DNA from: Arthrobacter sp. ISL-95
GTDB lineage: Bacteria; Actinomycetota; Actinomycetes; Actinomycetales; Micrococcaceae
Length of the DNA: 64,000 nucleotides
Assembly: GCF_018613695.1 (NCBI RefSeq)
Contig: NZ_JAGGPR010000003.1
Location: 582,372 to 646,371 of the forward strand
Reading direction: 5' to 3'
Below, in pieces: positions 9,995-24,454 of this stretch. A program made the position numbers and the translations under genes. The first letter of the stretch is position 1. Every line of letters starts with the position of its first letter. The notes under the pieces are model-generated. The model worked only from the letters and a program-made list of their open reading frames with translations. It was not told the origin of the DNA and did not search any database.

Positions 9995-11143
9995 GTGAAC
10001 CCACTCGATTTTCCCGAGTTCCCCTTTAGCTCTCCACTGGCGAAAGCCATCATCGACCTTGAACGGGTTCGCGCAGATTTAGGTGAAGGAACCACCGCTC
10101 CCGAGGTCTTCACGCAGTTGCGAACACTCTTTCAACTGCTGTCGAGCATCATGAGCGCACGCATCGAAGGCAATCGCACGTCAATTGTGGATGCTGTTGC
10201 AGGCGTTCAGCTCGCGGACCGAGCCGACATCAAGCGGGACGACGGTGTTCAAGAGATCGTCCAGCTCCAAGAAGCAACGGCTTTCGTCGACTCCGCCGTC
10301 GGCCGGGGGACGATACTGACGCACGGGTTTGTCCGGGAGCTGCACCGCATCTCCGTGGCCGGTTTGGAACGCGAAGGGGACCGCACACCTGGCGCCTACA
10401 GGCTCGCCGATGTCACCATCAGCGGCTCATCGCACCGGCCACCCTCGCCAGGGAGCGTGCACGGAGACATGACGGCACTCCTCGACTTCATCAATGCGGA
10501 CGTAGATCAAAACTACGAGCTCCTCAAGATTGCGCTCGCCCACCATCGGTTCGTCTGGATTCATCCTTTCGGCAATGGCAACGGTCGCGTCGGGAGACTC
10601 ATGACTTACGCCGCCATGCGGCGGCAAGGGTTCTCCGACACCGCCGGATACCGGGCGCTGAACCCAACGGCCGTATTTGGGGAGAACCGCGCCCTCTATT
10701 ACGAACGACTCGAAGACGCCGACTCCCTCGAACCCGAGTCCCTGATTCGCTGGTCGACGTATGTCCTCGAAGGACTACTGACAGACCTCAGAAGGTTGGC
10801 GAAACTCGGTGACAAGGACTTCGTTACGGAAGGTCTGTTGGTTCCCGCAATCGCAAGAGGCCTCGCCTCGTCGCGCTTCACGGCGGACGAAGCCCTGGCC
10901 TTGACCATCATCGCGCGCAAAGTTGATGTGAAGGCCGCAGACCTTAGTTCAGCATTCGCAGGTTCAGCTGCGACACGAAGCCAAGACATTCGAAAGCTCC
11001 TGGACCGCGGCGTCATTGAACCGATCGCCAAGGGGAAGAGATCCTACCGGCTTCGGCTGGCCCCGAGTGAACTAACGCCACTTCTGGTTCGGGAATTGGA
11101 TCAATTGGGATTCCTGCCCCGCATTCTGCGCGATTCAGAATAG
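9995..11143 (+). CDS. Fic-domain protein with N-terminal inhibitory helix (class II)
   Basis: 382 residues. The Fic catalytic motif HPFGNGNGRVGR is complete at 190-201. The self-inhibitory motif S/T-x3-E-G is present as SARIEG (54-59), which marks a class II enzyme whose Glu58 blocks the ATP site. The C-terminal 90 residues read as a winged-helix domain (LSSAFAGSAATRSQDIRKLLDRGVI). Active Fic proteins AMPylate (or de-AMPylate) protein targets. No separate antitoxin gene lies next to it, consistent with built-in inhibition. The start is GTG at 9995; no strong Shine-Dalgarno is seen. Local base composition upstream is AT-richer than the neighbours, a possible sign of transfer. Confidence 0.9.
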   Translation: MNPLDFPEFPFSSPLAKAIIDLERVRADLGEGTTAPEVFTQLRTLFQLLSSIMSARIEGNRTSIVDAVAGVQLADRADIKRDDGVQEIVQLQEATAFVDSAVGRGTILTHGFVRELHRISVAGLEREGDRTPGAYRLADVTISGSSHRPPSPGSVHGDMTALLDFINADVDQNYELLKIALAHHRFVWIHPFGNGNGRVGRLMTYAAMRRQGFSDTAGYRALNPTAVFGENRALYYERLEDADSLEPESLIRWSTYVLEGLLTDLRRLAKLGDKDFVTEGLLVPAIARGLASSRFTADEALALTIIARKVDVKAADLSSAFAGSAATRSQDIRKLLDRGVIEPIAKGKRSYRLRLAPSELTPLLVRELDQLGFLPRILRDSE

Positions 11144-11157
11144 TCTCCGCCCCCTAC

Positions 11158-12126
11158 CTAGCGGCGCAGGCTCTCGCTGGGCAGCTCCCCGAAAGCCTTC
11201 ACATAGAGCGCAGAGAAGCGCCCTTGGTGCGTGAAGCCGCATAGCTCAGCCACCGCCGTGGCGCTCTGCTCGCGGGGGCTCGCTTCGAGAAGCATTTCCC
11301 GGGCACGGTCCAGCCGGATACTGCGTAATAACTCCGACGGCGTCGCTCCGGTTTCCGCCCGAAGGGCCGTTTGCAGTGTTCGGACCGAGACACCCAAACA
11401 CTCGGCGATGTCCGGCACGGTGAGCTCTTCAAAAGCATGCCGTTCCAACAGCTCCCTGCATTCGCGGACCAAGCGGCTTTCGGATTCCATATCCCGGGTC
11501 TCATCGCCGGGCAACTCCATAGCCATCAGCAAGCGTGACACCATGCCATCCGCCAGCAAGCCCTGAACGAACACGGGAGCAGTGGAAAGCGGTTGGCTGA
11601 TCATGTCGTCATGAAGCTCGACGACGGACCTCAAGAACGCGCGGCCGGCGGCACCTGAAAGGTCCATACCGTAGCCCAAGTCCACAGCGTTGCTGCCGTA
11701 CAACTGCCCGGCTACCCTCTCCAGCGCAGAGCGCCTTACGTAGACAATCAGATGCGGGCTACCGCTGTCCCAGCTCATGGAAAATGGACGGTCGATGGGC
11801 GGAACAGTAGCCATGCGGGGACTGGATTCCACGGTGCGGGCGCCCACCTGCATGGAAGCGTGCCCGGCCAGCGGGATCTGCACAAGGTGGAAGTCCTGCA
11901 GGCCTTCGGGTTCGATCCGAACGTCAGCCCCGTAGTCCAGGAACTCGATTCCAACATCGCCGCGGTGGAGTGAACGTAGCTTCATGTCCATCAAGGATGC
12001 ACGCGTCCGCGGGGCGAGCTCATGGCTGCAGAACAATTCCGCGATCTTGGCATGTGCCTCGTCCACATCCGTTGTGGCCATTGTTGGCTGCCCCCGCAAA
12101 ACATCACGGGCAAGAATTCTGACCAT
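11158..12126 (-). CDS. AraC-family regulator of the divergent indole-type cluster
   Basis: 322 residues: an N-terminal AraC-binding-like cupin domain (about 20-200) and a C-terminal double HTH (about 215-320) with SVRTLQTALRAETGATPSELLRS and the second helix pair ending FGELPSESLRR. An ATG at 12126 with AGGTGG just upstream is used; a second in-frame ATG at residue 16 is possible. It is transcribed away from the oxygenase cluster across a 460-bp region that carries two copies of a 95-bp promoter block. AraC regulators of this architecture (for example IifR in Acinetobacter) activate indole or aromatic oxidation genes, so it is the probable activator here. Confidence 0.87.
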   Translation of the reverse strand: MVRILARDVLRGQPTMATTDVDEAHAKIAELFCSHELAPRTRASLMDMKLRSLHRGDVGIEFLDYGADVRIEPEGLQDFHLVQIPLAGHASMQVGARTVESSPRMATVPPIDRPFSMSWDSGSPHLIVYVRRSALERVAGQLYGSNAVDLGYGMDLSGAAGRAFLRSVVELHDDMISQPLSTAPVFVQGLLADGMVSRLLMAMELPGDETRDMESESRLVRECRELLERHAFEELTVPDIAECLGVSVRTLQTALRAETGATPSELLRSIRLDRAREMLLEASPREQSATAVAELCGFTHQGRFSALYVKAFGELPSESLRR

Positions 12127-12193
12127 CCGCCACCTACTTCACGGGTATTTGCAGTCCACATAACAAACGGTATTTTGCAGCTTTTCGCCTTTC

Positions 12194-12288
12194 GGATGAT
12201 CCCCGCGCCAAGTGGATATTCCGGAGTGCAGCGGCTCTCTAGAGTCGCTTTTAAGACAAGTATGACGCAGCTCACAGAACCATAACAG
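12194..12288 (+). repeat. Promoter block, copy 1 (drives 49-codon ORF)
   Basis: This 95-bp segment aligns without gaps to 12465-12559, by my count 73 of 95 identical. The best-kept parts are the 28-base left end containing CCAAGTGGATATTCC (12208-12222), the CTAGAGTCGCTT block (12239-12250), and GACAA-TATGACGCA (12255-12269) where TATGAC is a plausible -10. The left end sits where an AraC-type activator would bind. The block ends about 25 bases upstream of a GTG start with a good ribosome site. Confidence 0.75.
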
Positions 12289-12311
12289 TCGTGGAAGCGA
12301 GGTGAGGACAA

Positions 12312-12461
12312 GTGAAGAACATCAAGGTTGTACACGACCGCCGGGACGAATGGGACCGGAGTCACTTCGAACTCTGGGCGGCGGAGCTGCAGGCCAGGGA
12401 AACCCGACTCACTTCCGCGGCTTGGGTTGGTTGGCATGAAGAAGAGGAAGACCCTGCGTAA
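12312..12461 (+). CDS. 49-residue small protein, unknown
   Basis: GTG start with GGTGAGGA four bases upstream, 49 codons, then TAA. The product begins MKNIKVVHDRRDEWDRSHFE, is charged throughout, has five tryptophans and ends in an acidic EEEEDPA tail. There is no signal peptide or membrane span. Its frame lies exactly between two copies of the same promoter block, so it appears to be a real gene co-regulated with the oxygenase operon downstream. I do not recognise a family. It could be a small accessory or ligand-binding protein, or a leader peptide. It is short enough to be missed by routine gene calling. Confidence 0.55.
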   Translation: MKNIKVVHDRRDEWDRSHFELWAAELQARETRLTSAAWVGWHEEEEDPA

Positions 12462-12464
12462 TTT

Positions 12465-12559
12465 GGATGATCCTCGCGCCAAGTGGATATTCCCACCGGC
12501 AGCCCCTGCCTAGAGTCGCTTACAGGACAAATATGACGCACGTCATATCTTCGTAACAG
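12465..12559 (+). repeat. Promoter block, copy 2 (drives SDR-led operon)
   Basis: Second copy of the block at 12194-12288. CCAAGTGGATATTCC is at 12479-12493 and the candidate -10 TATGAC at 12532-12537. This copy additionally forms a dyad ATATGACG-CA-CGTCATAT (12531-12548) not kept in copy 1. It ends 29 bases before the SDR start. Confidence 0.75.
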
Positions 12560-12588
12560 CATCATCTCCACGCGAAAGGGTTCGGCAC

Positions 12589-13377
12589 ATGTCAGCACTC
12601 AAGGGCAGGACAGCAATTGTTACCGGTGGAGCCACCAAGGTGGGGCAAGGCGTGGTCACCGCCTTGCGGGACGCCGGGGCCACGGTGGTGGTTGCTGATA
12701 TAGACCCCAACGGCGCCTCACTCACCGCCGGGCTGGGCGAAGGGATCACCTACTCCCACGCTGACATCACTGACGATGCTGCCGTGAACCAACTGGTCAG
12801 CGAGACCGCAGCCCGGTACGGCAGCCTGGACATCCTGGTTAACCTCGCATGCACCTACAAGGATGACGGCGCGGCCTCCGGACGCGCCGACTGGCTCGAC
12901 GCACTCAACGTCAACCTCGTCAGCGCCGTGGTGGCAAGCAACGCGGCCCGCCCCTACCTCAAGGTTTCGGGGCACGGAGCCATCATCAACTTCACCTCCA
13001 TTTCCAGCTCGGTGGCACAAACCGGACGATGGCTTTACCCCGCCAGCAAAGCAGCTCTGGTCCAGGTCACCCGCAGCATGGCCGTGGACTTCGCACCGGA
13101 CGGCATCCGGGTTAACTCGGTCAGCCCGGGCTGGGTGTGGAGCAACATCATGGACTCCCTCAGCAACGGGAACCTTGAGAAGACAGATTCCGTGGCTGCA
13201 CCGTTCCACGCACTCAAGCGCGTCGGCCGCCCTCACGAGGTGGGTGACGTCGTCGCGTTCCTCGCCGGCGATCAGGCAAGTTTCGTGACCGGCGCTGATT
13301 GGGCCGTCGACGGCGGTTACTCCGCCTTGGGGCCGGAACGCGCCGAAGAAACCATCCCCCTCCTCGCCGCCAACTGA
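12589..13377 (+). CDS. Short-chain dehydrogenase/reductase, first enzyme of putative indole operon
   Basis: 262 residues, classical SDR: the nucleotide motif TGGATKVGQG (12-21), catalytic Ser at about 138-140, and Tyr150/Lys154 in YPASK. The usual NNAG is replaced by NLAC (85-88), a variant that may reflect an unusual substrate. The GAAAGGG ribosome site lies before the ATG. In the characterised iif indole cluster an SDR (IifB) oxidises indole dihydrodiol to 3-hydroxyindolin-2-one. The position here between an AraC gene and StyA-type oxygenases suggests the same kind of step. The substrate is not shown by sequence alone. Confidence 0.85.
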   Translation: MSALKGRTAIVTGGATKVGQGVVTALRDAGATVVVADIDPNGASLTAGLGEGITYSHADITDDAAVNQLVSETAARYGSLDILVNLACTYKDDGAASGRADWLDALNVNLVSAVVASNAARPYLKVSGHGAIINFTSISSSVAQTGRWLYPASKAALVQVTRSMAVDFAPDGIRVNSVSPGWVWSNIMDSLSNGNLEKTDSVAAPFHALKRVGRPHEVGDVVAFLAGDQASFVTGADWAVDGGYSALGPERAEETIPLLAAN

Positions 13378-13429
13378 CAAGCGCAACCAGACCCAGACTG
13401 CAAACAGACCAAGAGAAAAGGGCAACACC

Positions 13430-14671
13430 ATGACGCAACGCCACATCACCATCGTCGGCGCCGGCCAGTCCGGACTGCAACTCGGCATCGGCCTGCTCGA
13501 CGCCGGCTACCAGGTCACCACCATCTCCAATCGCACACCGCAGGAAATCCAGGAAGGCAAAGTAGCCTCCAGCCAGTGCATCTTCCATAACGCGCTGGAG
13601 CACGAGCGCGCCCTCGGGCTGAATTTCTGGCCGGACGCGCCCACCGTGGACGGTATTTCCTTCACCATCCCCCACCCCGAGCTGCCGGGCGAGAAGGCCA
13701 TCAGCTGGGCTTCCCGCCTGGACAACCACGCCAAGTCCATCGATCAGCGGGTGAAGTTCCCCAAGTTCATGGAGGAGTTCACCGCGCGGGGCGGCGAGCT
13801 GGTGTTCGAAGATGCCAGCGTAGCTGAGCTGGAGAAATACACGCAGAACTCGGATCTGGTGATTGTGGCGGCCGGCAAGGGTGAGATCGCCCAACTGTTC
13901 ACCCGCGACGCCGACCGCAGCACCTACGATGCACCGCAGCGCGCACTGGCCCTGACCTATGTGAAGGGCCTGAGGCCGCGTGAAGAGTACTCCGCGGTCT
14001 CGTTCAATCTCATCCCCGGTGTTGGCGAATACTTCGTCTTCCCGGCACTGACTACGTCCGGCCCTTGCGAAATCATGGTCTTCGAAGGAGTTCCGGGTGG
14101 CCCCATGGACACGTGGAAGGGCCTGTCCCCCGAGGAACACCTGGAGAACTCCAAAAACATCCTCAGTATGTTCCTGCCGTGGGAAGCCGAGCGTGCCACG
14201 GATGTGGAACTGACCGATCCCAACGGCGTGCTTCAGGGTCGCTTCGCTCCTACCGTCCGCCACCCGATCGCTACGCTGCCCAGCGGCAGGCAAGTACTGG
14301 GCCTGGCCGACGTCGTGGTGTTGAACGATCCCATCACCGGGCAGGGTTCAAACAACGCCAGCAAGTGCGCGGCGTCGTATCTGGCCAGCATCATCCAGCA
14401 CGGATCCGGCGTCTTCGATGCAGGCTTCATGCAGGCTACGTTTGAGCGCTATTGGGATTATGCGCAGCACGTTGCACACTGGACAAATGCCCTCTTGGCT
14501 CCGCCTCCGCCCCACGTCCTGGAGCTCCTGGGCGCTGCGAACAACGAGCCGGACATCGCGCACCGATTCGCCAATGGTTTCAACCACCCGCCGGAATTCC
14601 AGAACTGGTTCATGTACCCGGACAAAGCTGCTGACTACTTGGCCGGCCTCTCCGCCGCCAAGGTTTCTTAG
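13430..14671 (+). CDS. styA1: StyA-type FAD-dependent monooxygenase (styrene/indole monooxygenase family)
   Basis: 413 residues, group E flavoprotein monooxygenase. N-terminal FAD motif GAGQSGLQLG (about 9-18), internal DLVIVAAGKGEIAQLF, and the C-terminal family signature LNDPITGQGSNNASK. There is no reductase domain, so it uses reduced FAD supplied by a partner. These enzymes epoxidise styrene or the 2,3-bond of indole. It lies 52 bases after the SDR and 27 bases before a StyA2B fusion, the pairing known from Rhodococcus and other actinobacteria, where the fusion mainly supplies reduced FAD to StyA1. No styrene-oxide isomerase or phenylacetaldehyde dehydrogenase is nearby, which favours indole as substrate. 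Confidence 0.85.
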   Translation: MTQRHITIVGAGQSGLQLGIGLLDAGYQVTTISNRTPQEIQEGKVASSQCIFHNALEHERALGLNFWPDAPTVDGISFTIPHPELPGEKAISWASRLDNHAKSIDQRVKFPKFMEEFTARGGELVFEDASVAELEKYTQNSDLVIVAAGKGEIAQLFTRDADRSTYDAPQRALALTYVKGLRPREEYSAVSFNLIPGVGEYFVFPALTTSGPCEIMVFEGVPGGPMDTWKGLSPEEHLENSKNILSMFLPWEAERATDVELTDPNGVLQGRFAPTVRHPIATLPSGRQVLGLADVVVLNDPITGQGSNNASKCAASYLASIIQHGSGVFDAGFMQATFERYWDYAQHVAHWTNALLAPPPPHVLELLGAANNEPDIAHRFANGFNHPPEFQNWFMYPDKAADYLAGLSAAKVS

Positions 14672-14698
14672 CACAGCCCTGCTAATAAGGAATCCTTT

Positions 14699-16438
14699 AT
14701 GCGCAAGATAGCAATTATTGGTGCCGGCGAATCCGGCGCCCAACTGGCCCTTGGCCTCCAACGGGACGGCTTCGCTGTGACGCTCCTGTCCGACCGCTCC
14801 GCAGCCCAGATCCGCACCGGCAAGGTCATGTCCAGCCAGTGCATGTTCTCCACTGCCCTGGACGCTGAAGCCCAGATGGGGACGGCCCTCACCGGGTTCT
14901 ACGAGTCGGGTTCCGTCCCGGGCATCACTTCAATCCGGCTGCGCGTGGATGCTGAAAACCCCATCGAGTGGGAAGCCCCCTTGGATGGCCCCGCCCACTC
15001 CATCGATCAGCGCATCAAGAGCGCCCTGTGGATCGAGACGTTCGTGGCCGCCGGGGGTGACTTCCGCATTGAGAAGGTCACCCCGAGGATGCTCGAAGAA
15101 CTCGCCCATGATTACGAGCTGGTTATTGTCAGCACCGGCAAGGGAGAGATCGGCCGGATCTTTCCCCGCGACAAGACGAAGTCGCCCTTCGACCGTCCGC
15201 AGCGGGTGCTGGCCCTGAACTACGTCAAGCACGACGGCGGCGCTTCCGCCAGTACCTCCACCAGCGGCGACGCCATCCGCATGTCCATGGTCCCCGGCGT
15301 CGGGGAGTTCTTTACCTTCCCCGGCCTAACCGTCTCCGGGCCCTGCCGCATGATGGTGTTCGAAGGCGTGGTGGGCGGCCCCATGGACCGCTGGACCGAC
15401 GTCGGGACCCCGCAAGAGCAGCTCGAACGTTCGTTGGAGATCCTTCGCGAGCATTTTCCGCACGAGGCTGAGAACTTCGCCGGGGCGGAACTGACGGACG
15501 ACGGCGCCACGCTCCTGGGGCGCATCACTCCAACGGTGAGGTCCGCCGTCGGGGAGCTCGGCAACGGGAAGCTGGTGTTCGGACTCGGGGACGCAGTGGT
15601 CCTCAACGATCCCCTCACCGGGCAGGGGTCCAACAACGCGACACTGGCCGCCAAATACTACCTTGACGCGATCGTTCGCCGCGGCCAGCAACCATTTGAC
15701 CGCACATGGATGGAGCGGACATTCGATGAGTTCTGGCGCGGCTGGGGGCAATGGGCAGTGGAGTGGACCAACGATCTCCTGAAGCCGCGCAGGGATCACC
15801 AAAAGACGCTGCTGAGCGAGGCCGCGGACCATCCGGCACTGGCGGCAAGCATTGTGAGCGGTTTTGATGATCCGCGGACGTCGTACCCATGGTGGTTTGA
15901 CTCCGCTGCTGCCGCCGACTTCATGCAGGCCAGGAAAGAAGAGGACACGTCGGTTTTCGATGTCCGTGATTTCCGGAGCGCCTTGGGGCAATTCGCCACC
16001 GGCGTCACCGTGGTGACCACCGTCGCGGCGGACGGCCGCAAGGTGGGTATGACCGCCAATTCGTTCACCTCGGTTTCCATGGAGCCGCCGCTGGTGCTCT
16101 GGTGTCCCAGCAAACGGGCGCCCAGCCTGGGCGATTTCGAGGACGCAACGCACTTTGCCATCAACATCCTTGCCAGCGACCAGCACGTCCTGTCCCGCCA
16201 ATTCGCAACACCTGCAACGGACAAGTTTGTGGGCGCGGACACCACCGAGGGCATCGCCGGTGTTCCACTGCTGAACGGCGCCGTGGCAACCTTCCAGTGC
16301 CGCACCGTTTCGCGACATGACGCCGGGGACCACGTCATTTACGTGGGTGAGGTGGAAAGCTACAAGCACGACGGCGGCGCTCCCCTGGTGTTCCACGGCG
16401 GCAAGTACCACGCCACCGCCAGCCATCCGGATTTCTAA
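14699..16438 (+). CDS. styA2B: StyA2B fusion: StyA-type monooxygenase joined to StyB-type flavin reductase
   Basis: 579 residues. Residues 1 to about 415 are a complete StyA-like monooxygenase (GAGESGAQLA at the start and LNDPLTGQGSNNATL). From about residue 419 (VFDVRDFRSALGQF) to the end is a roughly 160-residue flavin reductase of the StyB/HpaC type with GVTVVTTVAADG and MTANSFTSVSMEPP. The fusion uses NADH to reduce FAD for itself and, by analogy to StyA1/StyA2B pairs, for the upstream monooxygenase. It lies 27 bases after styA1 and 43 bases before the next gene. The two StyA domains are clear paralogues, presumably from tandem duplication followed by fusion. Confidence 0.9.
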   Translation: MRKIAIIGAGESGAQLALGLQRDGFAVTLLSDRSAAQIRTGKVMSSQCMFSTALDAEAQMGTALTGFYESGSVPGITSIRLRVDAENPIEWEAPLDGPAHSIDQRIKSALWIETFVAAGGDFRIEKVTPRMLEELAHDYELVIVSTGKGEIGRIFPRDKTKSPFDRPQRVLALNYVKHDGGASASTSTSGDAIRMSMVPGVGEFFTFPGLTVSGPCRMMVFEGVVGGPMDRWTDVGTPQEQLERSLEILREHFPHEAENFAGAELTDDGATLLGRITPTVRSAVGELGNGKLVFGLGDAVVLNDPLTGQGSNNATLAAKYYLDAIVRRGQQPFDRTWMERTFDEFWRGWGQWAVEWTNDLLKPRRDHQKTLLSEAADHPALAASIVSGFDDPRTSYPWWFDSAAAADFMQARKEEDTSVFDVRDFRSALGQFATGVTVVTTVAADGRKVGMTANSFTSVSMEPPLVLWCPSKRAPSLGDFEDATHFAINILASDQHVLSRQFATPATDKFVGADTTEGIAGVPLLNGAVATFQCRTVSRHDAGDHVIYVGEVESYKHDGGAPLVFHGGKYHATASHPDF

Positions 16439-16481
16439 GCACACCCTCGTGACCAGGCACACCCTACTGAAAGGTGCGGAT

Positions 16482-18137
16482 ATGGACGATTCAGTTGACG
16501 TCGCCATCATCGGTTCAGGCATCAATTCCTTAGTGGCGGCGGCCGAGTTGGCTTTGGCCGGGAAGCGGGTGTGCATCATCGAGCGCTCGGACCGGCTGGG
16601 AGGTTTTGTCCATTCCGCCGAGCGGACTCTTCCGGGCTTCATCCACGACTCCTTCTCCTCCTGGCACCCGTTGTTCGTGTCCGGCGCCGCCTACGGGGCG
16701 CTGGGCAAGGAGTTGCATGCCAGGGGCCTGGAGTACGCCAACACCTCCGGCCCGGTGACAGCGAGCGTTGCCGCGGATCCCACCACCGGAGCCCACCGTG
16801 TGGTCATCGCAGAGCGAGATCCGGGGCCAACTGCTGCTGCGTTCAAGTCCGCTGGTGACCAAGCTGCGTACCTGGCCATGCTCGACGACCTGGGCCGCAA
16901 TGCAGGAACTGTGTTCGGCGCTTTCGGAGCAGAGCTTCGGTCCTTTGGGGAGGTGACCAAGATTGCGTTTGGCGCTGTTCGTCGCGGGCGCTTCACGGGG
17001 ACGGAAGCCTTCGTCCGGGATTCGGTGATGAGCGGCCGCAACTACGTCCGCAGCCGCTTTGACGGGTGGGAAGCGGACCAGCTGTGGTCGCCGTGGCTCC
17101 TGCACGCAGGACTCGGCCCGGACCAAGCCACCGGCGGGGTCATGCTCCCGGTCATGGCCATGAGCATGCACAGCTTCGGACTCCCGATTGTGAAAGGCGG
17201 GGCATCGAGGTTCGTGGAGGCATTTGACTCCTTGCTGCGCGACAATGGGGTCCGGATCATGCTGGGCGTGGACGCGGAAGAAATCCTGGTTGGCTCCGAC
17301 GGCGGCGGCTCCGGGAAGGGCGGTTCCGTCACCGGCGTCCGCACGTCACAAGGCGTGGTTTCCGCCGGGACAGTGCTCGCAAACGTTTCGCCCCAGGCCC
17401 TTTACACCCGGCTTCTTCGCCATCCACCGGCCGGTACTGCCGATGCCGCTGAACGCTACCAGAACGGCCGCGGAGCCATGCAGATTCACCTCGCGCTGGA
17501 CAAACCTGTGGAATGGCTTGATCCCAGGCTCAACGCCGTCCCGCTGGTTCACATCAGCAACGGCTCAGACAGCACCGGGATCGCCTGCGCCCAGGCCGAA
17601 GCCGGACTGTTGCCCAACGAACCCACCGTGGTGGTGGGTCAACAGTGCGTGCTGGATCCGTCGCGGGCTCCGGAGGGTAAGGCCACGTTATGGCTGCAGC
17701 TCCAAGAAGTCCCGTTCTCGCCCGTAGGTGATGCAGCGGGCCACCTGAACGTTGCCGCCGGCTGGACCGATGAGCTGAAACAGGGCTACCTTGAACGGGT
17801 CCTCGCGCGGTTGGAGCAGTTCGCGCCAGGAACCCGGGCTACGGTTCTTGCTTCAGACATCCTCGCCCCCACAGACCTGGCGGCAGCCAACCCCAACGCC
17901 GTCAATGGCGACCCCTATGGCGGCTCAGCCGAGCTCTTCCAAAACCTGCTGTGGCGGCCTTTCCCGGCAGCGGCAGGACACCAAACCGCCGTCGAAGGTC
18001 TCTGGCACATCGGCGCATCAACCCATCCGGGCCCAGGACTTTCCGGCGGTTCCGGACACTTGGTGGCCCAAAAACTGACCGCACCACCCTCACGACTTTC
18101 CCGCCTTCAATCAGCACTTAAACCAAGCAAGCGATAG
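16482..18137 (+). CDS. FAD-dependent oxidoreductase, phytoene-desaturase/amine-oxidase-like
   Basis: 551 residues with an N-terminal dinucleotide motif IIGSGINSLVAAAELALAG followed by ERSDRLGG, and the C-terminal FAD signature HIGASTHPGPGLSGGSGHLV of the CrtI-like group. The frame is open further upstream, but ATG 16482 with AAAGG nearby fits the family N-terminus. It is co-directional and closely spaced with StyA2B and the cyclase, with no carotenoid genes around, so a pigment role is unlikely. Inference: it could oxidise a dihydroxy- or hydroxy-indoline intermediate to isatin or a related dione, the step not covered by the other enzymes. Confidence 0.8.
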   Translation: MDDSVDVAIIGSGINSLVAAAELALAGKRVCIIERSDRLGGFVHSAERTLPGFIHDSFSSWHPLFVSGAAYGALGKELHARGLEYANTSGPVTASVAADPTTGAHRVVIAERDPGPTAAAFKSAGDQAAYLAMLDDLGRNAGTVFGAFGAELRSFGEVTKIAFGAVRRGRFTGTEAFVRDSVMSGRNYVRSRFDGWEADQLWSPWLLHAGLGPDQATGGVMLPVMAMSMHSFGLPIVKGGASRFVEAFDSLLRDNGVRIMLGVDAEEILVGSDGGGSGKGGSVTGVRTSQGVVSAGTVLANVSPQALYTRLLRHPPAGTADAAERYQNGRGAMQIHLALDKPVEWLDPRLNAVPLVHISNGSDSTGIACAQAEAGLLPNEPTVVVGQQCVLDPSRAPEGKATLWLQLQEVPFSPVGDAAGHLNVAAGWTDELKQGYLERVLARLEQFAPGTRATVLASDILAPTDLAAANPNAVNGDPYGGSAELFQNLLWRPFPAAAGHQTAVEGLWHIGASTHPGPGLSGGSGHLVAQKLTAPPSRLSRLQSALKPSKR

Positions 18138-18144
18138 GAGAACA

Positions 18145-18936
18145 ATGTCTGTTCTGGCCGGGCTCACTGCAGCCCTCTCGAGTGGTTCGGTGGAAATCAT
18201 CGATCTCACCACGCCCCTCAGCTCCGAGACCCCCATTCTGAACCTGCCGCAGCCGTTCGCGAACACGGTGGGCTTGTCCGTCTCGCCGGTGAGCAATTTC
18301 GACGACGCCGGACCGGCCTGGGCGTGGAACGACGTCACGGTGGGCGAACACGCCGGAACGCACCTGGATGCTCCGATCCACTGGATCACGGGCAAGGACG
18401 GCAAGTCCGTGGACCAGATCGAGCCGCGCCGCCTGGTGGGTCCTATTGCCGTGATCGACAAGACCTCCGAGGTTACCGGGAACCCCGATTTTTTGCTGGA
18501 ACCCGAACACTTTGAGCAGTGGCAGGAAGAGCACGGCGCTTTCCCGGAGAATTGCTGGCTTATCTTCCGGACCGGGTGGGCGGCGCGCGGCACGGACGCG
18601 GCGGCTTTCGTCAACGCGGACGACGCCGGACCCCACACTCCCGGGGTCTCTGCCGCAGGCGCAAAATGGCTTGCCGGAAACGCCTCGATCAGCGGTTTCG
18701 GTGTTGAGACCGTGGGTATCGACGCCGGTCAGGCCGGTGCTTTGGATCCAATGTTTCCCGTGCACTCGTTCCTCCTGGGCGCGGACAAGTATGGCGTGAC
18801 CTCACTGCGGAATGTGGACCGGCTCCCCGTCACGGGTGCCACGTTGGTAGTAGCACCGCTGCCGATCGTGGGCGGAACCGGCAGCCCCAGCCGCGTGTAC
18901 GCACTGGTGGAAAAGGGCGCGGTGGAGAAGGCATGA
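18145..18936 (+). CDS. Cyclase-family metal amidohydrolase, candidate isatin hydrolase
   Basis: 263 residues of the kynurenine-formamidase/cyclase fold (Pfam Cyclase). The metal motif HxGTHxDxPxH is complete as HAGTHLDAPIH (69-79), with ligands H69, H73 and D75. Isatin hydrolases belong to this family and open the lactam ring of isatin to isatinate with Mn2+. The next gene encodes a ThDP decarboxylase-like enzyme that would complete isatinate to anthranilate. The stop overlaps that gene by ATGA, so their products are probably made in step. Alternatives are kynurenine formamidase or another arylformamidase; the oxygenase neighbours favour isatin. Confidence 0.8.
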   Translation: MSVLAGLTAALSSGSVEIIDLTTPLSSETPILNLPQPFANTVGLSVSPVSNFDDAGPAWAWNDVTVGEHAGTHLDAPIHWITGKDGKSVDQIEPRRLVGPIAVIDKTSEVTGNPDFLLEPEHFEQWQEEHGAFPENCWLIFRTGWAARGTDAAAFVNADDAGPHTPGVSAAGAKWLAGNASISGFGVETVGIDAGQAGALDPMFPVHSFLLGADKYGVTSLRNVDRLPVTGATLVVAPLPIVGGTGSPSRVYALVEKGAVEKA

Positions 18937-20609
18937 GCGAGCAAGTACGGGTTTCAACGCTGGTGGGCAGGACGTTGGCGAAGCTCGGCGTCGGGCATGT
19001 TTTCGGGGTGGTGGGCAGCGGCAACTTCGATGTCACCGGCACCCTCATGGCCGAAGGCATTCCCTTCACGGCCACCCGGCATGAGGGCGGTGCTGCCACC
19101 ATGGCTGATGCGTACTCGCGGATGTCCGGCAAGGTAGGTGTGGTCACCACACATCAGGGGTGCGGGCTGAGCAATGCCATCACCGGGATTGGCGAGGCGG
19201 CGAAGAGCCGCACCCCCATGATTGTGCTCACCGCCGACACGCAGGCCGCAGCCATCAGGTCCAACTTCAAAATAGACCAAGACGGGCTGGCCAGAAGCGT
19301 CGGAGCAGTGGCGGAACGCATCCACTCGCCCGCAACAGCTGTGGCAGACACTGTGAGGGCTTTCCGGACGGCGGTGAACGAGCGCCGCACGGTGGTCCTG
19401 AGCTTGCCGCTGGATGTCCAAAGCGGCACCGCCTCAGATGAGGTGAGTGCCGTCGTCGTGCCTGAGCCGTTGAAGGTCCGCCCGGACGCCGCCGCCGTTG
19501 AGCAGTTGGTGGCACTGATTTCCGCCGCGGAACGGCCCGTGTTCGTCGCCGGACGCGGAGGACGGGGTGCCCGGGACGAGATCCTGGAGCTGGCACGGCA
19601 TGCCGGTGCGCTGGTGGCGACGTCGGCAGTGGCGAGCGGGCTGTTCAACGGCGACTCCCACAACCTGGGAATTTCCGGCGGTTTCTCATCGCCCACCACC
19701 GCCGAGCTCATCAGCGGCGCGGACCTGATAGTGGGGTGGGGCTGCGCGCTGAACATGTGGACCATGCGGCACGGGCGGCTGATCTCGGCCGGTACCAACG
19801 TGGTGCAGATCGACGTCGAAGATTCCGCGCTTGGTGCCAACCGGCCCATCACTCTTGGCCTGCTGGGCGATTCTGCGCTAACGGCTGCGGATGCCCTGAC
19901 GGCGCTGCGGTCCGTGCAGTCCGAACCGGCAGAGAAGTACCGCACCGAAGCCAACGCCCTGGCCATCAAGCAGGGATCGCGGTGGCGGGACGTCGACACC
20001 GAAGACCTGTCCACGGCAACATCAATTGACCCCCGGATACTCACCCGCGAGCTCGATACCCTGCTGCCTGCCGAGAGGATCGTGGCCGTGGATTCGGGGA
20101 ACTTCATGGGCTATCCAAGCCAGTACCTTGCCGTGCCGGACGAGTTCGGTTTCTGCTTCACCCAGGCGTTCCAAGCAATCGGGCTCGGGCTCTATACGGC
20201 GATCGGCGCCGCTCTTGCCCAGCCTCACCGGCTGCCGGTGCTGGGTGCCGGAGACGGCGGGTTCCTGATGGGCATCAGCGAACTGGAAACCGCTGCACGG
20301 CTCAAACTGCCTTTGGTGTGCATCGTCTACAACGACGCAGCCTACGGGGCAGAGGTGTACCACTTCGCGTCGGAACACAACGAAGCCGAGCTCTCCAGCG
20401 TCGTGTTCCCCGAGACGGACATCGCTGCGATCGCCCGCGGCTTCGGCGCCGAGGGCGTGACAGTGCGGACCCTGGCGGATCTGGACGCTGTGCGCCCGTG
20501 GATCGCAGCCTACCAAGCCGGGACACAGGACCGTCCCTTGGTGATCGACGCCAAGATCGCATCCGATGGCGGCTCGTGGTGGCTGGCCGAAGCGTTCCAG
20601 GGCCACTGA
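18933..20609 (+). CDS. ThDP-dependent enzyme, candidate isatinate decarboxylase
   Basis: 558 residues with the three-domain plan of acetolactate synthase/benzoylformate decarboxylase: PYR domain with catalytic Glu51 (RHEGGAATMADAY), a central domain, and a PP domain with the ThDP/Mg motif GDGG (440-443) to ND (467-468). It is not next to an ilvN-like small subunit, so it is not a biosynthetic acetolactate synthase. Coupled by ATGA to the cyclase-family gene, it most plausibly decarboxylates isatinate (a 2-aminobenzoylformate) to a product released as anthranilate or its aldehyde. Isatinate decarboxylases in bacterial indole-acetate pathways are of this class. The substrate remains inference. 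Confidence 0.8.
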   Translation: MSEQVRVSTLVGRTLAKLGVGHVFGVVGSGNFDVTGTLMAEGIPFTATRHEGGAATMADAYSRMSGKVGVVTTHQGCGLSNAITGIGEAAKSRTPMIVLTADTQAAAIRSNFKIDQDGLARSVGAVAERIHSPATAVADTVRAFRTAVNERRTVVLSLPLDVQSGTASDEVSAVVVPEPLKVRPDAAAVEQLVALISAAERPVFVAGRGGRGARDEILELARHAGALVATSAVASGLFNGDSHNLGISGGFSSPTTAELISGADLIVGWGCALNMWTMRHGRLISAGTNVVQIDVEDSALGANRPITLGLLGDSALTAADALTALRSVQSEPAEKYRTEANALAIKQGSRWRDVDTEDLSTATSIDPRILTRELDTLLPAERIVAVDSGNFMGYPSQYLAVPDEFGFCFTQAFQAIGLGLYTAIGAALAQPHRLPVLGAGDGGFLMGISELETAARLKLPLVCIVYNDAAYGAEVYHFASEHNEAELSSVVFPETDIAAIARGFGAEGVTVRTLADLDAVRPWIAAYQAGTQDRPLVIDAKIASDGGSWWLAEAFQGH

Positions 20610-20618
20610 GTGCCGGGC

Positions 20619-20692
20619 CCACCCCGGTAGCTCGCAGCAAAGCGCGTTCTGAGCTCTGAGAACGCGCGCGCTGCTGCTACTTACCGGGGTGG
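20619..20692. terminator. Bidirectional hairpin, dispersed family 1 (member A)
   Basis: Outer arms CCACCCCGGTA (20619-20629) and TACCGGGGTGG (20682-20692), middle arms GCAGCA/TGCTGC, and inner arms GCGCGTTCT/AGAACGCGC around a short loop. It lies between convergent ThDP and LacI genes, and its right arm includes the last codons of the LacI gene. It shares the GCAGC...GCTGCTAC plan with hairpins at 33.06, 41.41 and 44.16 kb. Confidence 0.75.
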
Positions 20693-21709
20693 GGCGGTGC
20701 TTCCACGGACAACCAGCTCCGTGGCGACTTCGAGGGCAGCCGTGGAACCCTTGCCCTGTTCGATCTGCTCCGTGAGCATTCCCACGGCCATGGACGCCAA
20801 CTGCGCCAGCGGCTGCCGAACCGTGGTGAGCGGCGGTGATGTGAGGGCTGCCTGAGCGATGTCGTCGAACCCCACAACGCTGAGGTCGCCAGGAATTTTC
20901 AGGGACCGCTGCGCCGCAGCGTTCATGACGCCCAGGGCTTGCAGGTCGCTTCCCGTGAAGATTGCTGTGGGTCGCTCCGGCAAGTCCAGAAGCTCCCCAC
21001 CCAGGCGAGACCCGGATTCGATACTGAAATCGCCATCGCGCACGAACTCGGGAAGTACTGGCAGCCCGGCTTCGTGAAGGGCGGCCGCGTACGCAGCGTA
21101 ACGGGCACGTCCGTGACCCGGACTGTGGACGCGGCCCGTAATGATGCCTATGCGCTCATGCCCCAGTTCCAGGAGATGGGACACCGCCCGCAATGCTCCG
21201 GAGAACGACGCCGGGCTAACGCTGGGTATTTGCAAGCCTTGGGAGCCTTCGGGGTCGATAGCAACCGCCGGGATGTTCAGCGTCCGCGCCAGCTCTACCA
21301 AGGGTGATCCCTGCCGCGGAGCCAACAGCATCACGCCGTCCAGGCGGTTGCTGGAGGGCTCACGCAGCTTCTGCCAGTTCTCCGCAGTGGCATTCACGGC
21401 TCGCGTGTAGGCCACGGTGTGACCAAGGCGGGCGGCAGCAGCTTCAACGCCTTCCATGGTTTCCAGGACCCACGGAGAATCAAAGTTGTTCACTACCAAC
21501 TGCAGCAGGCCGGGTTCGCTGGGCGAGTTCCGCTTGGTGTAGTCGAGCTCCTCCAAGGCCTGCTGGACCCGGGCACGCGTTGCCTCGGAAACATGCGAGC
21601 GCCCGTTCAGCACCTTGGAAACTGTGGGCACGGAAACGCCCGCAGCCGCGGCCACATCTGCGATCTTGGGGCGCGGAGTGGCGGTCAACGGGGCGGTCCT
21701 TGAACTCAT
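20681..21709 (-). CDS. LacI-family regulator of the polysaccharide locus
   Basis: 342 residues: N-terminal LacI HTH at about 15-40 (IADVAAAAGVSVPTVSKVLNG) with hinge helix, then a periplasmic-binding-protein-like sugar domain ending in the LAQLASMAVGML dimer region. It is the last gene of the minus-strand chain PmoA - GH43 - LacI, overlapping the GH43 stop by ATGA. Related regulators repress xylan, arabinan or pectin genes until an oligosaccharide binds. GAAAGTTTC motifs in the divergent promoter region at 24.2-24.4 kb are candidate operators. Confidence 0.9.
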   Translation of the reverse strand: MSSRTAPLTATPRPKIADVAAAAGVSVPTVSKVLNGRSHVSEATRARVQQALEELDYTKRNSPSEPGLLQLVVNNFDSPWVLETMEGVEAAAARLGHTVAYTRAVNATAENWQKLREPSSNRLDGVMLLAPRQGSPLVELARTLNIPAVAIDPEGSQGLQIPSVSPASFSGALRAVSHLLELGHERIGIITGRVHSPGHGRARYAAYAAALHEAGLPVLPEFVRDGDFSIESGSRLGGELLDLPERPTAIFTGSDLQALGVMNAAAQRSLKIPGDLSVVGFDDIAQAALTSPPLTTVRQPLAQLASMAVGMLTEQIEQGKGSTAALEVATELVVRGSTAPPR

Positions 21710-23295
21710 GGGGATACGGGAGCGGCAATGCGCTGGGTGGTTGCCCGGCGGACCGGCGCAGTGTCCACACGCACGGGTCCAACCCTAACACTGCCGTGTT
21801 CACGCGAGCCCAGGGGTGCTGTAGCGAAAATCCCCAGTTCAGCGCCGATCCACCGGCCCTCCACGACGTCGAAATCCCAGATGGGAATCTGCCACGGATC
21901 CGTTGGGCCAACACGCCAGGCAAACGTGGCCTGAGGGGTCTCATCCGTTCGGACCTGAAGCTCAATGCGCGGGCCTGGAAGTGCCACTGCCCGCCCGATC
22001 GGTTGCTCGTGGGGGCCTTCGCTCCCGGCGCCACTACCCAGGACGTAGCCGTTTTCGGTGCGTACCATTCCCAGCCAGGCGTATCGCTGACCCAAAACCA
22101 CGACGCCGGCCCGGGTGCCTAGGGGCACGTCGTCCAGTTCCAGTGTGGTGGTGAAGGTGGACGGTTCGCCGGGGAGAATCTGGGCAAGGATGTTGGGGAG
22201 TTCACGGAGGTTGATGGGGTCATTGGCTTGCGGGCGGAGTACCAAATGCCCTCCTCCACAGGTGGAAAGCCATTCGTCCCGGGGGTTGGCCTGCCAGTGC
22301 CACTGCGGGCCCAGGCCTGGGGACGTGAAGTTGTCGCTGGATGGAGGGGCGATGTCTTCGGGCGAGGTGCCCAACGGGTAGGGGTGGCTCACAACCGGGG
22401 TTCCCGGTCCGCCGTCGTCCGCTGTTTTGCCCATCCATGGCCAGCCGTCCGCGCCCCACCCCATGGGCTGGAGGTGGACCACCCGGCCGTACGCCCCCCG
22501 GTCCTGGAAATGCAGGAACCAGTCTTCGCCCTGGGGAGTAGTGACCCACGCACCTTGATGCGGGCCGTTCACCGGCGAATCGCCTTGCTCCAAAACCCGC
22601 CGTTCCTCGTAGGGTCCAAAAGGCGAACGCGAGCGGAAGACCGACTGCCACCCGGTGGCGACGCCGCCGGCCGGGGCGAAGATCCAGTACCAGCCATCGC
22701 GTTTGTAGAACTTGGGTCCCTCCAGGGTTGTGAAACCCGGAAGGTCCTCGCCGTTGATGACGTGGGTTCCATGATCCAGAAGCTCCGAGGCATCCGGGCT
22801 CATCCGATGCACGGTGAGCCGGTTCTTGACTCCGATCCGGCTCTTGGCCCAGCCGTGGACCAGATACGCCGTGCCGTCTTCATCCCACAGGGGGCAGGGG
22901 TCAATGAGTCCGCGGCCGGCGTAGAGAAGATGAGGTGCGCTCCACGGTCCTTCGGCTTTGTCCGCACTGAGCACAAAGATCCCGTGATCCGGATCGGGGT
23001 AGAAGATCCAGAATTTACCGTTGTGGTGACGCAGCGCGGGAGCCCAAACGCCACTACCGTGCCGCACCAGCGAATAGTGCCCCAGCTGCGGGAGTTCAGG
23101 CAGTGCATGCCCGGCATGTTCCCAATCCACAAGGTTCCATGACCGCAAAACCGGGAGGCCGGGAACCCTGTTGAAGCTGGAGGCAATGAGGTAGTAAGTG
23201 CCATCAACCTGGATTGCGTCCGGATCCGGCCAGTCGCCGTTGAGTATGGGGTTGTTGTAGACGGGGATGCGGTGGCGATTTCCCATGGTTGTCAT
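21706..23295 (-). CDS. Glycoside hydrolase family 43 (beta-xylosidase/arabinofuranosidase type)
   Basis: 529 residues: a five-bladed GH43 catalytic domain (about 10-310) followed by a roughly 200-residue beta-sandwich like the GH43 xylosidase C-terminal domain. The catalytic base lies in NGDWPDPD (D24) and the general acid in TTLEGPKFYK (EGP). No signal peptide, so it acts inside the cell on imported oligosaccharides. It starts at ATG 23295 with AGGAC just upstream and overlaps the PmoA stop by ATGA. GH43 enzymes release xylose or arabinose from xylan, arabinan or pectin side chains; which of these cannot be decided. Confidence 0.88.
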   Translation of the reverse strand: MTTMGNRHRIPVYNNPILNGDWPDPDAIQVDGTYYLIASSFNRVPGLPVLRSWNLVDWEHAGHALPELPQLGHYSLVRHGSGVWAPALRHHNGKFWIFYPDPDHGIFVLSADKAEGPWSAPHLLYAGRGLIDPCPLWDEDGTAYLVHGWAKSRIGVKNRLTVHRMSPDASELLDHGTHVINGEDLPGFTTLEGPKFYKRDGWYWIFAPAGGVATGWQSVFRSRSPFGPYEERRVLEQGDSPVNGPHQGAWVTTPQGEDWFLHFQDRGAYGRVVHLQPMGWGADGWPWMGKTADDGGPGTPVVSHPYPLGTSPEDIAPPSSDNFTSPGLGPQWHWQANPRDEWLSTCGGGHLVLRPQANDPINLRELPNILAQILPGEPSTFTTTLELDDVPLGTRAGVVVLGQRYAWLGMVRTENGYVLGSGAGSEGPHEQPIGRAVALPGPRIELQVRTDETPQATFAWRVGPTDPWQIPIWDFDVVEGRWIGAELGIFATAPLGSREHGSVRVGPVRVDTAPVRRATTQRIAAPVSP

Positions 23296-24152
23296 GATGT
23301 CCTGTCCGGAGTGCTGCTGAAGTGGTGGAGAAGAAGTTCGTCAACGTGATGGCTGCTGGTGATGTGGCCGTCGTGGATTACGGCGTGGAGGCTGAGCTGG
23401 AGCGGGTTGGCCCGGTCCACCGTGACCGGCTTGTCCCAGGCGACGGCGGGACCGGCCCCCACGTAGCCTTCCGTCCGGACAAACCAGGGATGCAGCTCCG
23501 CGAGGTTTTGGGCGAGGACGACGCTAACGTCCTTTCCCCCTTGCCGGATGCCCACCACGAGCCAGGGAGAAAGGGATCCATGGGCGGCCTCAGTACCAGC
23601 GCCTTCGGAACACAGGACCTTCGCCGGCGCGTCACCTGGCGGTAAGCGCCAGAAGATTCCGCCGTAGCCGGCGCCAACGCGCCCTTTAACGGCCGACGAC
23701 GACACGGTCAGCCGTTCCAGCTCACCGGCTGGCCGGAGTACTGAGTCGAAGGAAAGGCTCCAAGTATCCGCGTGGGGGTGTGTTCGGCACCGGTAGCTCC
23801 GTTGCTCCAGAGCCAGCTCACGCCCGTTCCTGTCGAGCCAGGTGACCGCCCCCTCGCCCAGGCCGTCCTTATACAGCCAGCCCGACGGCACCTGTCGGCC
23901 GTGATTGGGAAGGACCTCCGGACCGCGACGGGTAAAAGTGGATCCGCCCCAGAAGTTGCTGCCGTTCACGTCCGAGAAGGCGAGCGAGAGGCCCACATGG
24001 TGCGGGTGGTCGGCAGGGCCGGCTTCCGTGAGGGGCACACCGGCCAAGGTCCGGAGGGGGTGAAGGTACGGCCGGGGAGACAGCATCGCTGCCAGGTCAA
24101 CGCCATCGTTCACCTGCGCCACGGTTGCGCCGTGGATTTTGAAGCTTCCCAT
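23292..24152 (-). CDS. PmoA-family protein (DUF6807)
   Basis: 286 residues matching the PmoA-like family often found beside sugar-catabolic genes: GPADHPHHVGLSLAFSDVNGSNFWGG near residues 65-90 with conserved HPHH, and a C-terminal HAVIHDGHITSSHHVDELL. The ATG at 24152 has AAGGACG upstream; the frame extends 23 codons further without a ribosome site. It is first in the operon with GH43 and LacI. The biochemical role of the family is unknown; the paired histidines suggest metal binding. Confidence 0.8.
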   Translation of the reverse strand: MGSFKIHGATVAQVNDGVDLAAMLSPRPYLHPLRTLAGVPLTEAGPADHPHHVGLSLAFSDVNGSNFWGGSTFTRRGPEVLPNHGRQVPSGWLYKDGLGEGAVTWLDRNGRELALEQRSYRCRTHPHADTWSLSFDSVLRPAGELERLTVSSSAVKGRVGAGYGGIFWRLPPGDAPAKVLCSEGAGTEAAHGSLSPWLVVGIRQGGKDVSVVLAQNLAELHPWFVRTEGYVGAGPAVAWDKPVTVDRANPLQLSLHAVIHDGHITSSHHVDELLLHHFSSTPDRTS

Positions 24153-24454
24153 GAGACGTCCTTGTGATGGGTTGGCGGGTGTGTGGAGTTCAGCATAATC
24201 AAAACGGAAATAGTTCGGCAACTGTACGGGAAAGTTTCTTTAAAGATTTTTCCGCTTGAGCCTACTGATGTGTTGACAGTCACAAGCAATTGTTGCTAGA
24301 AATCGTTTACTCAGTTATTTTTCCCTTGATTTTGGTCTCCATGGGGCTTCGCACCTCGCCTCTCAGTCCACATCGTGCAGAAAGTTTCTGCAACGGATGC
24401 TCAAAATTCCTTGTACCTACGTCCCTGAGTGGGGCATCAGAAAGGCGTCATTCA
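24153..24454. promoter_or_regulatory. Divergent promoter region of the polysaccharide locus
   Basis: 302 bases between the PmoA operon (left) and the sugar importer (right). A perfect dyad GCAGAAA-G-TTTCTGC lies at 24377-24391, and a related GAAAGTTTCTT at 24230-24240. TTGACA at 24273-24278 followed after 17 bases by CTAGAA is a candidate promoter for the importer. The repeated GAAAGTTTC core looks like a LacI-family operator, close to GAAAN-TTTC sites of actinobacterial xylan regulators. Confidence 0.55.

Follow-up and report, generated by a model that had tools for sequence, protein, structure and literature searches.

A seven-gene locus of Arthrobacter sp. ISL-95 with a predicted route from indole to anthranilate by an isatin branch

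A stretch of 64,000 nucleotides from Arthrobacter sp. ISL-95 (contig NZ_JAGGPR010000003.1, positions 582,372 to 646,371; hereafter the window) carries a locus of seven genes whose products are predicted to turn indole into anthranilate, with isatin and isatinate as intermediates. The probability of this reading is put at roughly 0.62, and the isatin route is considered well supported as a prediction. The host genome measures 4.73 Mb. All seven open reading frames (ORFs) were verified at positions 11158-20609, in the set, order and orientation given in an earlier note on this DNA (the original prediction). They code for an AraC-family regulator, a short-chain dehydrogenase/reductase (SDR), two StyA-type flavin monooxygenases, an FAD oxidoreductase (FADox), a cyclase-family protein and a thiamine diphosphate (ThDP)-dependent enzyme:

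11158-12126, minus strand: AraC-family regulator (Pfam AraC_binding_2 and HTH_18), divergent from the operon
12589-13377, plus strand: SDR of the IifB type (Pfam adh_short_C2), predicted producer of dioxindole (3-hydroxyindolin-2-one)
13430-14671, plus strand: StyA1/IndA1, group E flavin monooxygenase (Smoa_sbd), predicted indole epoxidase
14699-16438, plus strand: StyA2B/IndA2B, fusion of Smoa_sbd and Flavin_Reduct, predicted FADH2 supplier
16482-18137, plus strand: FADox of the CrtI/CrtO type (NAD_binding_8/Amino_oxidase), candidate dioxindole dehydrogenase
18145-18936, plus strand: cyclase-family protein (Cyclase, PF04199), predicted Mn-dependent isatin hydrolase
18933-20609, plus strand: ThDP-dependent enzyme (TPP_enzyme N/M/C), predicted isatinate decarboxylase

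In the proposed pathway, the AraC protein would read two GGAT-N16-GGATA operator copies and turn the operon on. By homology to related, characterised enzymes, StyA1 would epoxidise indole at C2-C3 with FADH2 delivered by StyA2B. The epoxide would be hydrated and the diol oxidised to dioxindole by the SDR. FADox would take the place of IifA and probably oxidise dioxindole to isatin, which the cyclase would hydrolyse to isatinate. The ThDP enzyme would decarboxylate isatinate, most simply to 2-aminobenzaldehyde, and a dehydrogenase encoded elsewhere would yield anthranilate; alternatively, an oxidative decarboxylation could lead straight to anthranilate. Thus, an indole-type oxygenase, an isatin-hydrolase-type cyclase and an alternative back end are retained from the original prediction, while its link between StyA2B and the isatin branch and its plain decarboxylation to anthranilate are given up.

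Enzymes of the predicted route

The cyclase is predicted to be a Mn-type isatin hydrolase on the grounds of strong homology and active-site conservation. Its matches to isatin hydrolases in the PDB reached 261, 244, 240 and 238 bits (5nmp, 4j0n, 5nnb and 5nna, respectively), compared with 26.5 bits for kynurenine formamidases. The motif HxG[T/A]HxDxPxH, the residue numbering and the residue roles follow the published account of these hydrolases (PMC6117287). This motif, the Mn ligands and the Asp-His-His triad are all present in the window cyclase, where the metal motif reads HAGTHLDAPIH, as originally noted. Among 49 distinct homologues scoring at least 200 bits within the fetched loci, H69, H73, D75, H79, W80, D193 and H207 are retained in every sequence; 47 have W59 and 40 have W61. 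Position 219, a Glu in kynurenine formamidases (PMC6117287), is occupied by Thr in 42 homologues, Ala in four, Gln in two and Glu in one; the window protein has Thr219. An identity as kynurenine formamidase or arylformamidase was rejected on this residue and on a score of 31.8 bits against TIGR03035 (cut-off 223), which upholds the type of cyclase originally proposed. The Labrenzia aggregata and Ralstonia solanacearum isatin hydrolases share the metal motif, Mn ligands, triad, Trp59 and Trp61 (PMC6117287). Relative to the numbering of the L. aggregata enzyme LaIHA, Thr replaces Gln219 and Phe replaces Tyr204, and, unlike these hydrolases, the window cyclase is embedded in an indole-type operon.

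At the front end, StyA1 scored 597 bits against PDB entry 7z4x and 150 bits against the styrene monooxygenase 3ihm. The 7z4x record names the molecule merely as a flavoprotein oxygenase subunit; we take it to be the Acinetobacter indole monooxygenase. The NCBIfam StyA model gave 239 bits (cut-off 550). With 7z4x understood in this way, StyA1 is closer to indole monooxygenases than to styrene monooxygenases, in line with the original prediction. It is 56% and 66% identical to the StyA1 proteins of Acinetobacter and Variovorax loci that carry IifA, and StyA2B is 53% identical to a Variovorax StyA2B. Similarly, the SDR shares 55% and 62% identity with its counterparts in iif-type loci of these two genera and scored 391 bits with NCBIfam PRK08265 (cut-off 294). 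The fingerprint described for group E indole monooxygenases is S46-Q48-M50-V/I73-I76-A96 (PMC13101512); read by eye, the corresponding residues are S-S-Q-C-M in StyA2B and S-S-Q-C-I in StyA1, the later positions depending on gap placement.

FADox belongs to the CrtI/CrtO superfamily and scored below the cut-off for all NCBIfam models among the matches listed (25 of 30). With TIGR02734, the crtI family, it reached 85.6 bits (cut-off 238) and so falls outside that family, while several database records label it “phytoene desaturase family.” The structural model (pLDDT 85) best matched the carotenoid desaturase 4rep (TM 0.71/0.80), followed by nicotine and amine oxidases. A carotenoid role was rejected, as the seven genes include no other carotenoid-type gene and the NCBIfam carotenoid models were far missed. 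In several clusters the FADox gene directly adjoins a cyclase gene. From its position and the chemistry called for, FADox is the obvious, likely candidate for the oxidation of dioxindole to isatin; the original prediction correctly placed an FAD oxidoreductase in the cluster and assigned it no role. The mechanically called ORF begins at 16317; its relatives align from about 16482, where an ATG is preceded by GAAAGG, so the start is most likely 16482.

For the ThDP enzyme, no isatinate-decarboxylase model or chain occurred among the Pfam, NCBIfam and PDB matches listed, and the assignment comes from context. Its structural model (pLDDT 87) resembled benzaldehyde lyases, acetolactate synthases and pyruvate oxidase with similar scores, and a choice between decarboxylase and oxidase by fold comparison was therefore set aside. 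The gaps between the six co-directional genes measure 52, 27, 43, 7 and -4 bases, the last being the four-base ATGA overlap of the cyclase and ThDP genes that the original prediction pointed out. In a phylum sample of 346 genomes, ThDP homologues at E <= 1e-100 were found in 23 genomes (25 matches), and a cyclase homologue lay within 140 bases of 20 of these matches, in 20 genomes. The five unpaired matches comprise second copies (G193, G144), partial matches (G417, G176) and one genome, G302, with the genes on separate contigs. The proposed coupling of the two genes thus extends to a conserved gene pair.

All 19 cyclase-ThDP loci outside the window's genome were fetched. In six of them (L058, L062, L069, L074, L075 and L080) genes resembling 2-aminobenzoate-CoA ligase and 2-aminobenzoyl-CoA monooxygenase are also found, and L076 has the ligase alone; these predicted anthranilate-CoA genes may count in favour of the proposed route. 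Across the 19 loci a close SDR match was confined to L058 (323 bits; all others below 100) and a FADox match to L058 and L062. On a plasmid of Deinococcus psychrotolerans, genes for a monooxygenase, SDR, MarR, enoyl-CoA hydratase, acyl-CoA dehydrogenase, CoA ligase, cyclase (63% identical), ThDP enzyme (70%) and RidA form one run, and a second Deinococcus plasmid has the cyclase-ThDP pair without the anthranilate-CoA genes of this run. In the host genome itself, contig C9 encodes a PRK08255-type monooxygenase/reductase (1230 bits against a cut-off of 1078, which no genome among 14 controls exceeded) beside a CoA-ligase-like protein 53% identical to the Deinococcus one. The same contig has aromatic-acid-transporter-like and PaaX-like genes, both below cut-off, and PcaR/PcaJ-type genes above their cut-offs.

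Going from isatinate (C8H7NO3) to anthranilate (C7H7NO2) requires an oxidative decarboxylation, whereas a plain ThDP decarboxylase would yield 2-aminobenzaldehyde (C7H7NO). In a preprint on the iad pathway of indole-acetate degradation, C8H7NO3 and C7H7NO are reported before anthranilate by formula, unnamed in the section concerned (PMC12633357). As these formulae are exactly those of isatinate and the aldehyde, we infer 2-aminobenzaldehyde as the preferred product of the ThDP enzyme, to be followed by a dehydrogenase encoded elsewhere.

Conservation of the locus and exchange of its parts

A scan of genome contigs yielded 14 near-relative loci with StyA2B proteins 90-96% identical to that of the window. 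Thirteen show the full gene set in unchanged order, while the contig of the fourteenth starts inside StyA2B and has the rest; this constancy shows the grouping to be beyond chance. Full-length StyA2B was present in seven of 120 sampled genomes of the family, and in each of them the complete gene set sits together. Among these genomes, five come from four other genera, with the six enzymes 54-73% and AraC 42-45% identical to those of the window. The arrangement can vary at this distance: in G006, from another genus, the cyclase-ThDP pair is found on the far side of the AraC gene and runs in the opposite direction to SDR-StyA-FADox, and in L050 and L052 flavin-reductase-like and luciferase-like genes sit between the cyclase and ThDP genes. 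As few candidates were scored per genome (four each for FADox and ThDP, five for StyA1, seven for the cyclase), presence counts are lower bounds. Proteins of Arthrobacter sp. YN and of Paenarthrobacter strains share 96% identity with the ThDP protein of the window. In three pairs (P0023/P0047, P0025/P0054 and P0053/P0084), contigs of equal length from one strain are listed with distinct ThDP proteins that share 93-95% identity with that of the window, so the module may be duplicated in some strains.

In the iif clusters described for indole degradation, the corresponding back-end position is taken by IifA, a cofactor-independent oxygenase of the dienelactone-hydrolase (DLH) type (PF01738) in Acinetobacter that has been described as two-domain (PMC7225977). 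An identity of IifA as a PF04199 cyclase, suggested by one report (PMC9871250), was rejected, as a DLH protein stands at the IifA position in both Acinetobacter and Burkholderia. IifA was found neither among the seven genes nor in the near-relative loci, and the best match in the host genome reached 49.8 bits, with 29% identity over part of the protein. Since IifA belongs to another family and has no orthologue in this genome, the isatin branch can be regarded as an alternative back end, in agreement with the original prediction. Among the loci compared, IifA and a FADox-cyclase pair never occurred together.

Besides the seven-gene loci, 15 StyA-type loci were compared, counting G236 once and two stretches of one Alloyangia plasmid once; StyA1 was matched on 54 plasmid records, nine of which had their surroundings examined. 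IifA is present in four loci (L017, L018, L023 and L025) and FADox with cyclase in two (L019/L034 and L022), and in G236 FADox and cyclase are dispersed across about 53 kb. Of 335 genomes sampled from the class, two besides the window's own gave a StyA2B match, and both loci had neither back end in the fetched stretch. One locus from another member of the window's family, L054, has a 50% identical StyA and a separate reductase. In Variovorax paradoxus 2u118 (L018), IifA follows directly behind StyA1/StyA2B. Conversely, FADox and cyclase stand together with StyA/StyB in Azospirillum, and SDR, a flavin-containing monooxygenase (FMO), FADox and cyclase occur without StyA in G396 (L058) and Tsukamurella (L030). 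StyA2B is therefore not specific to the isatin branch, and a link between the two, as in the original prediction, is not supported. As to the co-occurrence check proposed with it, StyA2B and the isatin-hydrolase-type cyclase go together in seven of seven family genomes; L018 has IifA, and L086 and L087 have neither back end in the fetched stretch.

The FMO that replaces StyA1/StyA2B is trimethylamine-monooxygenase-like (L058 11720-13213 and L030 8430-10001; 53% mutual identity) and scored 79 bits with the trimethylamine-monooxygenase model, far under its cut-off. An IorAB-type 2-oxoacid:ferredoxin oxidoreductase is encoded between or beside cyclase and FADox in Alloyangia (L034 11065-14770) and Tsukamurella (L030 11674-15503), and the fetched stretches of both lack a ThDP homologue. 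This enzyme is of a different class with a fitting reaction and is a candidate for converting isatinate to 2-aminobenzoyl-CoA.

Taken together, there is about an even chance that aerobic breakdown of indole is built from modules, with a back end through isatin that is distinct from IifA (a dioxindole dehydrogenase misnamed as phytoene desaturase, isatin hydrolase and either a ThDP isatinate decarboxylase or an IorAB-type enzyme), interchangeable front ends and an anthranilate-CoA drain. If so, StyA1/StyA2B, StyA/StyB and the trimethylamine-monooxygenase-like FMO would be alternative front ends, and the IorAB-type enzyme would yield 2-aminobenzoyl-CoA directly. Such modules would also suggest functions for genes named “phytoene desaturase family,” “cyclase family” or “acetolactate synthase-like.” According to a 2018 review, the role of isatin in indole degradation was open, as no gene of the iif cluster was associated with making or using isatin (PMC6221969). 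With an isatin-hydrolase-type gene and its conserved partner inside an indole-monooxygenase-type operon, this question becomes testable.

Competing readings and known systems

Several observations weigh against the proposed route. For Acinetobacter, Sadauskas et al. regarded isatin as an artefact or a dead-end product (as cited in PMC6221969). Eight of the 15 StyA-type loci have neither back end in the fetched stretch (L020, L021, L024, L054, L064, L065, L086 and L087), and two of these, L086 and L087, encode StyA2B-like fusions. The role of FADox is read from its position, and FADox adjoins the cyclase gene in three of 12 phylum-sample genomes with FADox (G000, G396 and G336); the two are 8 kb apart in G355, and in the other eight no strong cyclase match was found inside 10 kb. 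Close FADox homologues on plasmids of Brachybacterium (L032 8998-11880) and Dietzia (L033 7244-11660) lie near TetR and paired small multidrug resistance (SMR) transporter genes, with no cyclase match in the fetched stretches. Further down the pathway, the full anthranilate-CoA pair is missing from 13 of the 19 other cyclase-ThDP loci. The own-genome ligase scored 318 bits with TIGR02262 (benzoate-CoA-ligase-like), under the cut-off of 375, and the model behind the 2-aminobenzoyl-CoA assignment bears the name “salicylyl-CoA 5-hydroxylase/oxidoreductase.” The fold of the ThDP enzyme cannot separate oxidative from non-oxidative decarboxylation. The cluster contains no aldehyde dehydrogenase gene and an oxidation step is required, so the original statement that ThDP-dependent decarboxylation delivers anthranilate has to be revised. 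Finally, the cyclase-ThDP pair on the Rhodococcus erythropolis plasmid pLRE138 (L028 5315-15770), which stands with genes for LysR, an ABC transporter, thiolase, CoA ligase and aldehyde dehydrogenase, looks like part of an indole-acetate-type catabolism. As a side observation, an IS481 element interrupts the FADox homologue on the Dietzia plasmid.

It is possible, though rather unlikely, that the cyclase opens dioxindole to 2-aminomandelate and FADox oxidises this to isatinate, so that isatin would not be an obligate intermediate. The order of the two steps is undecidable from gene adjacency. In mandelate pathways an acid dehydrogenase precedes the ThDP decarboxylase, which fits this order; dioxindole, by contrast, is a lactam without an activated 3-carbonyl. 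In Variovorax, deletion of iadI, annotated as a kynurenine formamidase, leads to accumulation of C8H7NO2, the formula of dioxindole, with C8H7NO3 and C7H7NO downstream (PMC12633357). Against this stand the characterised cyclase homologues (5nmp, 5nna/5nnb and 4j0n), which hydrolyse isatin (PMC6117287), and the route through isatin is preferred.

Less probable still is a different substrate, either a substituted indole or other aromatic (skatole, a halo-indole or a breakdown product of indole-acetate), or a cluster that mainly serves detoxification. Group E enzymes also accept styrene and sulfides (PMC6017014) and include the skatole monooxygenases (PMC13101512), and the indole-acetate-like cluster L028 shares the cyclase-ThDP pair. 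Yet the SDR, StyA1 and AraC genes agree with indole-type clusters by order and family, StyA1 shares 56% and 66% identity with its counterparts in the IifA-carrying loci (see above), and no close homologue of the L028 CoA ligase or thiolase is present in the near-relative loci. It is very improbable that the cyclase acts on, or makes, N-formylanthranilate, as proposed for a Providencia rettgeri cluster. PF04199 does cover kynurenine formamidases, and the Providencia authors place this compound at the cyclase step and report detecting it (PMC9871250); the scores given above (31.8 bits against a cut-off of 223 for the arylformamidase model; 26.5 bits for formamidases against 261 for an isatin hydrolase) and the single Glu219 among 49 homologues speak against it, and the ThDP enzyme would be left without a task.

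Parts of the locus have counterparts in known systems. The iif/dho-ipo (WHOP) clusters of Acinetobacter, Burkholderia and Pseudomonas share AraC, the SDR (IifB/DhoB), a group E monooxygenase and anthranilate as predicted end product (PMC12538310). They have a separate flavin reductase and IifA (fetched examples are L017, L023 and L025), whereas the window locus has a fused reductase together with FADox, isatin hydrolase and ThDP enzyme. An indole cluster with AraC, SDR, StyA, cyclase and oxidoreductase has already been published for P. rettgeri GS-2 (GS(A-R); PMC9871250); its cyclase is of PF04199 and its oxidoreductase gene, apparently assigned no step, measures 1613 bp. It differs by a separate flavin reductase, a phenol-pathway porin-type gene and a gene table without a ThDP gene. 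The same oxygenase pair, one member reductase-fused, is known as IndA1/IndA2B from Rhodococcus opacus 1CP and V. paradoxus EPS (PMC6017014, PMC6165268, PMC13101518); unlike in the window, IifA lies directly behind StyA2B in a V. paradoxus locus (strain 2u118). The iad/Bradyrhizobium indole-acetate pathway has C8H7NO2 as well as the two later formulae, ends in anthranilate and includes a hydrolase annotated as kynurenine formamidase, and it differs in beginning at indole-acetate with a Rieske enzyme and in removing the side chain by CoA synthase and thiolase (PMC12633357). As far as the open-access papers searched show, the locus is a new form of indole catabolic cluster, and a description elsewhere is possible.

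Predicted promoter repeat, small open reading frame and flanking genes

A 98-bp direct repeat with copies at 12191 and 12462 (77% identical) lies between the AraC and SDR genes and encloses a small ORF:

12191-12288, plus strand: predicted promoter/operator copy 1, with the twin half-site GGAT-N16-GGATA at 12194-12218
12312-12461, plus strand: unannotated ORF of 49 amino acids with GTG start, between the repeat copies
12462-12559, plus strand: predicted promoter/operator copy 2, with the twin half-site at 12465-12489, immediately before the SDR gene

In each copy GGAT-N16-GGATA stands 67 bases ahead of TATGAC. The pattern GGA(T/C)-N16-GGATA occurs exactly twice in all 15 Paenarthrobacter-type regions and once in each of five regions from four other genera, compared with a chance expectation of 0.0023 per Paenarthrobacter-type region in mononucleotide shuffles. 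Every first copy and all five single ones are followed by TATG(A/G)C, as are 13 of the 15 second copies (all except L007 and L011). For the AraC protein, the best NCBIfam model was AndR, the anthranilate dioxygenase regulator, at 133 bits and far under the cut-off of 350.

The ORF was found in 13 of the 15 Paenarthrobacter-type regions including the window; it is intact at 49-52 codons in 12 and disrupted in L013. The two regions without it, L015 and L016, have a shorter spacer between the repeat copies. Pairwise differences among 11 regions amounted to 281, 232 and 806 at the first, second and third codon positions, and this concentration at the third position indicates that the ORF behaves as a coding gene. 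In the family sample it occurs in two of 120 genomes, at the seven-gene locus. Both the predicted duplicated promoter with its conserved twin half-site and the 49-amino-acid ORF are new.

Just outside the cluster, at 9995-11143, lies a gene for a Fic-type protein; its motif HPFGNGNGR is presumably that of Fic. It was matched in four of the 14 near-relative loci (L003, L006 in part, L009 and L016) and is thus a variable neighbour. Behind the cluster, LacI, GH43 and DUF6807 genes are located at 20681-24221; with L006 and L014 ending earlier, LacI and GH43 were matched in four of the 14 near relatives (L003, L008, L011 and L013) and in L048.

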